From assembly GCA_903898335.1 (NCBI GenBank), contig CAIUEV010000115.1:1-17850 (forward strand): a stretch of 17,850 nt of DNA. Reading direction: 5' to 3'. Under the pieces are notes generated by a model. It was not told where the DNA came from, ran no database searches, and worked only from the letters and a program-made list of their open reading frames with translations. Source of the stretch: an uncultured bacterium (GTDB lineage: Bacteria > Patescibacteriota > Minisyncoccia > CAIUEV01). The position numbers and the translations under genes were made by a program. The stretch's first letter is position 1. Every line of letters starts with the position of its first letter. Below, one piece after another: positions 14,895-17,850 of the stretch.

Positions 14895-16934
14895 ATGCCA
14901 AAAATCAAAGAAATCCGCAAAAGAGACGGAAAGGTTGTTCCCTTTAAAAAAGAAAAGATCACCAAGGCCATTTTAAAGGCGGGTAGTGCCACCAAAGAAT
15001 TCGGCTACAAGATAGCGGAAGCGCTTTCTAACATAGTCATTTCTCAAATGGAGGAACAGGCGGAAAACGGCGTCTTGGACGTGGAAACAATCCAAAATAT
15101 AATCGAAAAGGTTATTTTCTCCGCCGGTTTTGAAAAAACATCTCGTGCCTATATCGTTTATCGAGAACAGCACAAAGAGATGCGCCAATTCAAAAATCTA
15201 TTCAAACTGGAAGGCTTGGTTGACGATTATTTGTCAGAGGACGACTGGCGAGTCAAAGAAAATTCCAACATGGGGTACTCCTTGCAAGGCCTCAACAATT
15301 ACATTTCCGCGGCCGTTACCTCTCGTTACTGGCTCAACAAGATCTATCCGAAGGAAATTCGCTTAGCTCACAAAAAGGGGGATATCCATTTGCACGATCT
15401 TGGAATACTGGCTCCTTATTGCTGCGGTTGGGATCTGAAAGATCTTCTGCTTTCCGGAATTCAGGGAGCGGGAGGAAAGTCGGAAAGCAAACCGGCCAAG
15501 CATTTGCGCACCGCGCTCGGACAAGTGGTAAACTTTTTTTACTCTCTGCAAGGAGAGTCGGCGGGAGCTCAAGCTTTTTCCAGTTTCGACACTTATTTAG
15601 CTCCTTTCATTCGCTACGACAAGCTTGACTACGATCAAGTCAAACAAGCCATTCAAGAGTTTGTTTTCAATATGAACGTACCGACCCGCGTCGGCTTTCA
15701 AACTCCTTTCACCAACATAACTTTGGATTTGAATCCATCCGGCGTGTTGGCGGAAGAAAATGTTATTATCGGCGGTCAAATCCAAAAAGAAAAATACAAA
15801 GACTTCCAGAAAGAAATGGATGTTTTCAACAAAGCTTTTGCCGAAGTGATGCTTGAAGGAGATGCGAAGGGAAGAGTCTTTACTTTTCCCATCCCGACCT
15901 ACAATTTGACTAAAAATTTCGACTGGGAGAATCCCGTCTTGAAACCGATTTTTGAAATGACAGCCAAATATGGCATCCCGTATTTCTCCAATTTCATCAA
16001 TTCGGACATGAATCCGGACGACGCCCGATCAATGTGTTGCCGACTCAGGTTGGATAATCGAGAGCTGCGAAAAAGAGGTGGCGGACTGTTCGGCGCTAAT
16101 CCGCTGACCGGGAGTATCGGTGTTGTTACTATTAACTTGCCGAGGCTCGGCCATCAAGCCAAAAACAAAAAAGAATTCATGGAAAAACTGGCCTACCTGG
16201 TCGATTTGGCAAAAGGCAGCTTGGAAATCAAACGTAAATTTTTGGAGAAATCGACCGATCGTCATCTTTATCCATATTCCCGTTTTTACTTGAGAGATAT
16301 TAAAGCTCGCAATGGTAATTATTGGAAAAATCATTTTAACACCATCGGTATTATCGGCATGAACGAAGCGTTGCTCAATCTGATCGGTAAAGATATTGCC
16401 AGTCCCGAAGGTCAGGCTTTCGCCCTTGAAGTAATGGACTTTGTGCGCGACAAACTGCGAAAATTCCAGGAAGAAACAGGAGAACTGTACAATCTGGAAG
16501 CCACCCCGGCCGAGGGAGTAACCTACCGCTTCGCCAAAAAGGATAAAGAACTTTTCCCCGAGATTGTCGTTAGCAATGAGGATAAAGTCAAGGAAGTGAA
16601 CGCGGCACCTTACTACACCAATTCGACTCACTTACCGGTTAATTTTACCGCCGATATGTTTGAGGCCTTGGAGTTGCAAGACGAACTGCAAAGTCGTTAC
16701 ACCGGAGGCACGGTTTTCCACGGTTTCTTGGGTGAAAAATTGCCGGACACGGAATCGGTGAAAAAATTGGTTCGCAAGATCGCCGAAAAATTCACTTTGC
16801 CTTATTTTACCATCACTCCGACTTTCAGTGTTTGTCCAAAACACGGTTATTTAGCGGGTGAACACGAATTTTGCCCAAAATGCGATCTTGAGTTAGAATT
16901 GAAAAAGAAGCAACAATCTAAAAGTTCAAAATAA
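14895..16934 (+). CDS. nrdD: Anaerobic ribonucleoside-triphosphate reductase, catalytic part, lacking the glycyl-radical segment
   Basis: This 679-residue class III reductase makes deoxyribonucleotides from NTPs without oxygen. Residues 4-95 are an ATP-cone regulatory domain (IRKRDGKVVPFKKEKI). The ten-stranded barrel follows, with 'DIHLHDLGILAPYCCGWDL' (C176/C177, the hydrogen-donor cysteine region) and 'SMCCRLRLD' (C381/C382). The C-terminus has the zinc site C647-H650-C660-C663 (CPKHGYLAGEHEFCPKC). The chain then ends in a Lys/Ser tail after C663. In the family the essential glycyl-radical motif (RVxGYL) follows directly; here it is absent and lies in the next ORF at 16958. The ATG has no Shine-Dalgarno site. 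A promoter with a candidate operator precedes it. The activase NrdG is not in the window. Confidence 0.95.
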   Translation: MPKIKEIRKRDGKVVPFKKEKITKAILKAGSATKEFGYKIAEALSNIVISQMEEQAENGVLDVETIQNIIEKVIFSAGFEKTSRAYIVYREQHKEMRQFKNLFKLEGLVDDYLSEDDWRVKENSNMGYSLQGLNNYISAAVTSRYWLNKIYPKEIRLAHKKGDIHLHDLGILAPYCCGWDLKDLLLSGIQGAGGKSESKPAKHLRTALGQVVNFFYSLQGESAGAQAFSSFDTYLAPFIRYDKLDYDQVKQAIQEFVFNMNVPTRVGFQTPFTNITLDLNPSGVLAEENVIIGGQIQKEKYKDFQKEMDVFNKAFAEVMLEGDAKGRVFTFPIPTYNLTKNFDWENPVLKPIFEMTAKYGIPYFSNFINSDMNPDDARSMCCRLRLDNRELRKRGGGLFGANPLTGSIGVVTINLPRLGHQAKNKKEFMEKLAYLVDLAKGSLEIKRKFLEKSTDRHLYPYSRFYLRDIKARNGNYWKNHFNTIGIIGMNEALLNLIGKDIASPEGQAFALEVMDFVRDKLRKFQEETGELYNLEATPAEGVTYRFAKKDKELFPEIVVSNEDKVKEVNAAPYYTNSTHLPVNFTADMFEALELQDELQSRYTGGTVFHGFLGEKLPDTESVKKLVRKIAEKFTLPYFTITPTFSVCPKHGYLAGEHEFCPKCDLELELKKKQQSKSSK

Positions 16935-16957
16935 CTAAAAAAACTAAAATTAAAGCT

Positions 16958-17113
16958 ATGGAAAATCAAAATGAAGAAAAAAACGAGAGGCAACGTTGTG
17001 AAGTTTATTCAAGAGTAGTCGGCTATCTTCGACCGGTAAAACAATGGAACAAAGGAAAGCAACAGGAGTTCGAGGAAAGAAAAACCTACGAAGTGGACAG
17101 CTGCTGCCAGTAA
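16958..17113 (+). CDS. Separate glycyl-radical domain of the anaerobic ribonucleotide reductase
   Basis: The 51-codon ORF encodes the missing end of NrdD. Residues 1-13 are a charged tail; then CEVYSRVVGYLRPV (14-27) holds the radical glycine G22, followed by WNKGKQQEF (30-38) and ERKTYEV. This aligns with the last 35 or so residues of intact NrdD proteins, such as the RVCGYL end of the E. coli enzyme. It starts 23 nt after the NrdD stop in a different frame, with no Shine-Dalgarno site, as for most genes here. It could be a separate radical subunit, comparable in idea to YfiD/GrcA for pyruvate formate-lyase. Its frame is open back to 16922, so a -1 shift (or a missing A in the run before the NrdD stop) would join the two with a linker of about 38 residues. 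It ends before a terminator. Confidence 0.85.
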   Translation: MENQNEEKNERQRCEVYSRVVGYLRPVKQWNKGKQQEFEERKTYEVDSCCQ

Positions 17114-17135
17114 TATTATGCGACACTGAACAGAG

Positions 17136-17166
17136 AAACCCCGGGAATCGCTCTCGGGGTTTTTAT
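17136..17166 (+). terminator. Terminator of the ribonucleotide reductase operon
   Basis: AAACCCCG (17136-17143) and CGGGGTTT (17155-17162) form a GC-rich 8-bp stem with an 11-nt loop, followed by T-rich sequence. Confidence 0.88.
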
Positions 17167-17806: not shown

Positions 17807-17850
17807 GGGCTCGTAGCTTAGTTGGTAGAGCGCCTCCATGGCATGGAGGA
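17807..17850 (+). tRNA. tRNA-Ala (GGC), 3' part beyond the window
   Basis: The first 44 bases of a tRNA are present: acceptor strand GGGCTCG, T8-A9, a D-arm (GCTTAGTTGGTAGAGC) with the conserved GG and A14, G26, and an anticodon stem CCTCC/GGAGG around ATGGCAT. The anticodon is GGC, which reads alanine GCC and GCT codons, with T33 in place. The variable loop, T-arm and acceptor 3' strand lie past the window end. A possible -10 (TATAAT, 17774-17779) lies about 30 bp upstream, without a clear -35. Confidence 0.92.

Follow-up and report, generated by a model that had tools for sequence, protein, structure and literature searches.

RESULTS

A truncated nrdD gene followed by a separate glycyl radical ORF

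The window, by which we mean the whole stretch of 17,850 nt analysed here, carries on its plus strand a gene (14895..16934; PF13597, PF03477, NF006126) for a 679-aa NrdD, the predicted catalytic core of a class III ribonucleotide reductase (RNR), which comprises an ATP-cone, a barrel domain and a zinc site and has no glycyl radical domain (GRD). The protein corresponds to positions 1-528 of the 562 of PF13597 in the Pfam search (E 3.8e-188) and to positions 3-659 of the 684 of the NCBIfam model NF006126 (1054.8 bits, cut-off 548), and its ATP-cone spans residues 6-95 (14910..15179; PF03477, E 1.1e-19). The pair C381-C382 (16035..16040) is invariant in alignment A5, which holds 37 truncated NrdDs, and C382 aligns with the MGCR cysteine of Prevotella copri NrdD (residue 420 of chain 8p23_A), which we take for Cys416 of the structure paper. 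An NxN flap motif is described for P. copri NrdD in the accessible text of two papers (PMC11226230, PMC12662201); N123-x-N125 of the window protein (15261..15269), also invariant in the 37 rows of A5, was taken for a candidate equivalent from the motif itself rather than from a residue-by-residue alignment. The zinc site CPKHGY..CPKC (C647 to C663, 16833..16883) is complete within the large protein, ahead of where the radical loop would follow; metal binding is predicted from the sequence and from the invariance of C647, H650, C660 and C663 in A5.

As the initial annotation had stated, the large ORF ends 16 residues past C663 and lacks RVxGYL, and the next ORF, in a different frame, is essentially the missing radical segment. 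Reading of both ORFs places them 23 nt apart (16935..16957). The small ORF (16958..17113, plus strand) encodes 51 aa matching positions 530-562 of PF13597 (E 2.7e-11) and 548-580 of TIGR02487 (E 1.3e-10), so that the two ORFs together cover the PF13597 model once, and the NCBIfam models agree. It contains SRVVGYLRPV and WNKGKQQEF, and the RVxGYL radical motif thus sits on a separate ORF and not on the NrdD chain. The putative radical glycine, G22 within SRVVGYLRP (17021..17023), is invariant in alignments A1 and A2 and is matched to the GYL glycine of the P. copri protein by an aligned stretch that is itself below significance. PF13597 was the sole Pfam match of the small ORF up to E 1, with no glycyl radical domain of the pyruvate formate-lyase type, and a sequence search against solved structures gave no meaningful match. 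By homology the window enzyme is a class III RNR and, by its predicted architecture, a two-chain variant.

Directly 3' of the small ORF lies a hairpin resembling an intrinsic terminator (17134..17164, plus strand; 13 pairs, then TTTTT). With the hairpin in this position, the two genes may form one transcription unit; across the window the scan found 3 such hairpins for 3.2 expected from shuffles, so there is no excess overall. No Shine-Dalgarno-like site precedes the small ORF, and none was seen by eye ahead of nrdD. An intein or intron between the two parts was considered and rejected, as the gap of 23 nt is too short and no Rfam match at gathering score was found anywhere in the window. At other positions of the gene, several related NrdDs look interrupted by intein-like inserts, judging by frame length (L140, L141, L108 and L109, in frames of >1000 aa or in two pieces). 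At the far end of the window (17808-17850), the sequence looks by eye like the beginning of a tRNA gene that runs off the contig; the ARAGORN search was negative.

Close relatives carry the same break

An identical NrdD occurs on 9 contigs among the matches listed (the window's own probably counted), and NrdDs of 678-679 aa that are 96-97% identical are encoded on further contigs listed, one of which measures 901,994 bp. Small proteins of 52 aa that are 92-98% identical to the window's were likewise present among the matches listed. The GRD is absent from 119 of the 120 nearest NrdDs (best 120 of 8000 scored), P0206 being the sole full-length protein, and the same 120 include GRD-less proteins named Halothermothrix orenii and Anoxybacter fermentans. 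For the short proteins, 7985 matches were obtained among 8000 scored, a figure that conveys scale only, since it may hold contig-end fragments and is not a gene count.

The same genome encodes a second split pair

The assembly to which the window belongs consists of 148 contigs (961 kb, 97% complete); the window is one of them and has A-rich runs at the ORF junction. PF13597 matches this genome at four places, two in the window, one on contig C89 and one on contig C56. The latter two correspond to a second NrdD of 663 aa (L002 1150-3141, contig C89) and to a second small GRD ORF of 65 aa (L004 1459-1656, contig C56). The zinc ribbon of this second NrdD is cut midway, the protein ending with YCNDCGFIKRGALDLPKNLL; a CxxC stands ahead of TRVTGYF in the second small ORF. 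In the comparison with 8p23_A, both cysteine pairs and GYL of P. copri stand together on one chain; since P. copri carries both pairs on a single chain, the four presumed zinc ligands of the second enzyme would be split two per chain. The initial annotation had named a second intact nrdD in the genome, with the window copy decayed, as a finding that would speak against the split. The PF13597 search found no intact full-length nrdD in this 97% complete assembly, and the second copy is split too, with its peptide on another contig.

No class I/II large subunit (PF02867) was detected in 8 of the 9 genomes of the order, including the window's genome; the exception, G006, has another RNR. The radical SAM activase NrdG2 is present in the window's genome (TIGR02495, 198.1 bits, cut-off 131.15; G000:C15:10114-10698). 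It is the single NrdG2 above cut-off there, against two different radical domains, and would have to serve both. The profile search of 12 genomes detected NrdG2 above cut-off in 11, in several of them near the nrdD locus or the small ORF, and gave no match above cut-off in G002.

The second-type arrangement, a truncated NrdD and a separate radical-domain ORF, is found in all 9 genomes of the order, the window's included. Four genomes of the sister family have the gene order nrdD, small ORF, nrdG2, and in a fifth, G005, nrdD and the small ORF are separated by a contig break. Within the window's own family, the small ORF lies on a contig other than that of NrdD in 4/4 genomes, and this arrangement is syntenic in four genera: by eye, the small ORF stands between an O-antigen-ligase-like ORF and a pair formed by a nucleoside-kinase-like ORF and ksgA in 4/4, and a gene read as leuS adjoins the second-type NrdD, again in 4/4. 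As these genes are unlinked, recoding cannot join the small peptide to NrdD in this family.

Split NrdDs recur in bacteria and archaea

NrdD proteins ending after the zinc site and accompanied by a short GYL ORF, which the initial annotation had proposed to look for in related genomes, were found in many lineages. A sample of 380 genomes of the phylum gave a match in 85, above cut-off in 84, and a hand tally assigns 47 of these 84 to the split form and leaves 37 unsplit. All 47 split genomes have a radical-domain ORF, which in G362 was recognized only by reading the DNA and in G422 lies across a contig end. G362 had been a candidate for a truncated NrdD with no partner, which was rejected, the partner being present with GW in place of GY; this small ORF (L084, about 2608-2463, minus strand) has GW where the others have GY.

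Scanning named genomes with type-A small ORFs as queries, we kept 80 loci of at least 576; the motif lies in a frame of <230 aa in 30 of the 80 among the matches listed, L203 counting only through a contig start. These loci include Micrarchaeota, Thermoplasmata, Aenigmatarchaeota, Elusimicrobia, Bipolaricaulis and Hippea. Thermodesulfobacterium hveragerdense DSM 12571, a cultured isolate, has the split too, and AAGGAGG precedes its small ORF. Among 26 genomes that were searched whole, and that had been picked for holding a short GRD frame, 21 combine a truncated NrdD with a short GRD ORF. Two of the split genomes hold more than this pair, G436 having a full-length NrdD as well and G425 a further free GRD ORF elsewhere. 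The other 5 have a full NrdD and a longer radical-domain ORF with a zinc ribbon, the NrdD of G428 being spread over two contigs. Another phylum sample (148 genomes, 96 with NrdD) added 15 genomes counted as split, each with a small ORF; this count takes in G559, G610 and G633, where both parts share one frame and an intervening stop is presumed, and G507 and a few contig-end cases stand outside the split/full classification.

Free GRD ORFs beside a full-length NrdD were present in all three genome samples (5/37, 5/26 and 3/96). ORFs joining a zinc ribbon to the radical domain were observed beside a full NrdD at L139, L155, L166, L167, L187 and L207, and beside a truncated NrdD at L082 (G047).

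Spacing, frame and selection

We read 46 linked loci for both ORFs, and the gap to the first in-frame ATG was measured in 43, leaving aside G019 (NrdD full) and G047 and G004 (no start codon ahead of the match); G184 was kept, although masked bases in its NrdD make its gap and frame doubtful. The three relative frames are represented 15, 14 and 14 times, and the gaps range from -41 to +201 nt. Because all three relative frames are occupied, one shared frameshift is ruled out, and a gene with programmed frameshifting at a fixed frame relation was rejected on the same figures. The small ORFs start with their own ATG codons, and a Shine-Dalgarno-like site precedes the small ORF in 10 of the 46 loci.

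Purifying selection acts on the small ORF, for which six close pairs give a pooled pN/pS of 0.18. The divergence of the two ORFs is correlated over the 43 pairs (r 0.887; 0 of 2000 permutations as high), which is expected for linked genes regardless.

Phylogeny and intermediate states

A tree was built from 157 NrdD cores with the radical-domain columns excluded, after removal of three nearly identical rows and of loci listed by hand as partial or duplicate. Split (71 rows) and fused (86 rows) states require 12 changes on this tree, at least 7 of them forced by well supported branches, for about 52 with shuffled labels. The number of origins of the split is rough, because this is a quick tree that gave long-branch warnings. 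All 29 rows of the well supported clade that contains the window are split.

Some genomes look like in-between steps, judging from their gene content. G019 encodes a full NrdD, then a zinc-ribbon radical-domain ORF and NrdG2; in its relative G047, NrdD is truncated and a small ORF of this kind accompanies it. Similarly, in family f61, genus g251 combines a full NrdD with a free domain (about 144 aa) encoded at an unlinked site, and in genus g153 the in-cis domain is missing and the free domain is present. These two contrasts (G019/G047 and g251/g153) lead us to infer that a spare copy can arise first and then become obligate. The free proteins of f61 (L118, L120, L122, L124 and L126; about 144 aa, unlinked) have an unassigned N-terminal region followed by the NrdD radical domain and occur with either full or truncated NrdD. 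An N-terminal ATP-cone, suspected by eye in this 144-aa protein, was discarded since Pfam gave no support.

Free radical domains in viruses

On virus contigs, 80 loci were kept of 174 (L228-L307). The motif lies in a short frame in 69 of the 80, three of these at a contig start, and at 66 of these 69 loci an NrdD core is absent. When 50 virus records, which may be fragments, were searched whole, 48 contained the GRD alone and 2 a truncated NrdD together with a GRD. The large neighbouring ORFs were inspected at 12 virus loci: head, packaging, tail or lysis families were present in 6 and replication, nuclease or methyltransferase families in 4, and for the remaining 2 no family match was obtained for the neighbour ORFs tried. 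In the archaeal virus ANMV-1 (L308 3174-3608), the GRD is encoded as a 144-aa protein that is annotated as the reductase.

DISCUSSION

We consider with high confidence that the window encodes a genuine two-chain class III RNR. The ATP-cone, the zinc site and the barrel, which houses the radical cysteine, would all belong to the 679-aa NrdD, and the 51-aa protein would be a GRD alone, docked as the radical subunit and held in the barrel with no covalent tie. In the solved enzymes, according to the accessible text of the structure papers (PMC11226230, PMC12662201), the GRD is mobile and must leave the barrel for activation; a break between the zinc site and the radical loop would keep this movement possible for an untethered domain, and on this ground we regard the small protein as a radical subunit that docks. 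By analogy, NrdG2 would make the radical on G22, and transfer would run through C382 to the nucleotide. Damage by oxygen would be confined to the small chain, which costs little to make, and a radical peptide that is replaceable after oxygen damage is plausible because free domains resembling spare parts exist beside full-length NrdD. The flexibility of the GRD, together with such free copies, may have allowed the in-cis copy to be lost several times.

The division of the enzyme into a catalytic protein and a radical peptide, first proposed from the window alone, gains support from its presence in many lineages, from frame independence, from selection and from the unlinked cases. A recoding event (programmed frameshift, stop read-through or ribosomal bypass) that fuses the ORFs into a long NrdD would fit the short gap in most of the 43 pairs, 15 of which share a frame with a stop between. 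Yet the spread of frames and gaps, the start codons of the small ORFs, some with a strong Shine-Dalgarno-like site, and the own-family pieces on different contigs with different conserved neighbours make it very improbable in general, and it is refuted for the unlinked pairs. For the same reasons, and in view of the relatives, we reject the -1 frameshift or missed A that had been raised as an alternative for the window.

A decaying nrdD, the enzyme being dead or dispensable and the ORFs its remnants, might be imagined in a nutrient-scavenging cell with a small genome (961 kb), as such cells often import nucleotides. We give this little credence, given purifying selection on both ORFs in relatives, the invariance of the radical cysteine and zinc ligands among the 37 truncated NrdDs, the all-split clade and the lack of any other RNR large subunit. 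It is equally hard to see the small ORF as a spare part only, comparable to GrcA/YfiD, with NrdD working either alone or with another GRD: free GRD ORFs do lie beside full-length NrdD in the three samples, and G425 has a further one, but the large protein of split genomes has no GRD, class III chemistry requires a glycyl radical, and the window's genome holds two truncated NrdDs and two GRD ORFs. Finally, a sequencing or assembly error, to which the 148-contig assembly and the A-rich junction might point, has a negligible chance and was ruled out, because many bacteria and archaea, an isolate included, share the split, and NrdDs 96-97% identical on other contigs are truncated as well.

The preferred two-chain enzyme shares with the canonical class III NrdD/NrdG systems (Escherichia coli, T4, Thermotoga maritima, P. 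copri) the ATP-cone, the barrel, the radical cysteine, the zinc site, RVxGYL and an NrdG2-type activase in the genome. It differs in that the radical domain is a separate protein, and the second pair even divides the presumed zinc cysteines two and two. Among class III enzymes in the literature consulted, it is the catalytic chain that carries the glycyl radical. GrcA/YfiD and T4 Y06I, spare parts of pyruvate formate-lyase (PMC8683613, accessible text), are likewise small free-standing GRDs, also phage-encoded, that are expected to complete a radical enzyme devoid of its GRD. In contrast, the small ORF of the window matches the NrdD family model only and is, in split lineages, the sole copy and not a repair part; the position beside a full-length enzyme, typical of GrcA/YfiD, is absent from the window's genome and present in G019, G270, G402 and others. 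The same text states that only YfiD and Y06I are validated and that spare parts for other glycyl radical enzymes are possible.

RNR chains made from at least two genes are known: split class II NrdJa/NrdJb, phage Aeh1 NrdA, phiYS40 NrdJ and phiAS4 NrdD. In the accessible descriptions (PMC9669993, PMC3653736), however, separation of the GRD does not appear, and several of the phage cases are ascribed to introns, inteins or homing endonucleases. The nrdD of Jug phage (PMC12363816) is also in several fragments, with no splicing seen between those of 230 aa and 91 aa, a junction that we would guess to be such a detached end; the accessible text describes intron-interrupted genes and is silent on the radical domain. 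Class I RNR resembles the two-chain enzyme in keeping a stable radical on a second protein, NrdB, which is an unrelated ferritin-type protein with another radical and long-range transfer (PMC9669993). Within the accessible part of the literature searched, a detached radical domain of NrdD was nowhere described; most subscription papers and RNR databases lay outside this search, and specialists may know truncated NrdDs.

Taken together, the comparative evidence from sequence indicates that a split class III RNR is real and conserved, with the predicted defining radical residue on a second protein. We are evenly divided over a wider reading, in which class III RNR would in general consist of two components, the radical subunit being exchangeable: obligate where NrdD is split, a spare part for oxygen-cleaved NrdD where a free domain accompanies the full-length protein, and in phages a delivered part restoring or taking over host dNTP synthesis, the zinc held two and two by both chains forming a clasp in the second enzyme of the window's genome.

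Ribonucleotide reduction is essential, and in a natural two-chain form the radical domain could be supplied or taken away, labelled, or swapped for another. This would make testable the route of NrdG to the glycine, the release of the GRD as part of dATP control, on which the accessible texts of the P. copri and StNrdD structure papers disagree (PMC11226230, PMC12662201), and spare-part rescue beyond pyruvate formate-lyase, left open in the accessible text of PMC8683613. Annotation would also be corrected, as truncated-looking NrdDs and short ORFs, some of them named hypothetical, would be recognized as partners.
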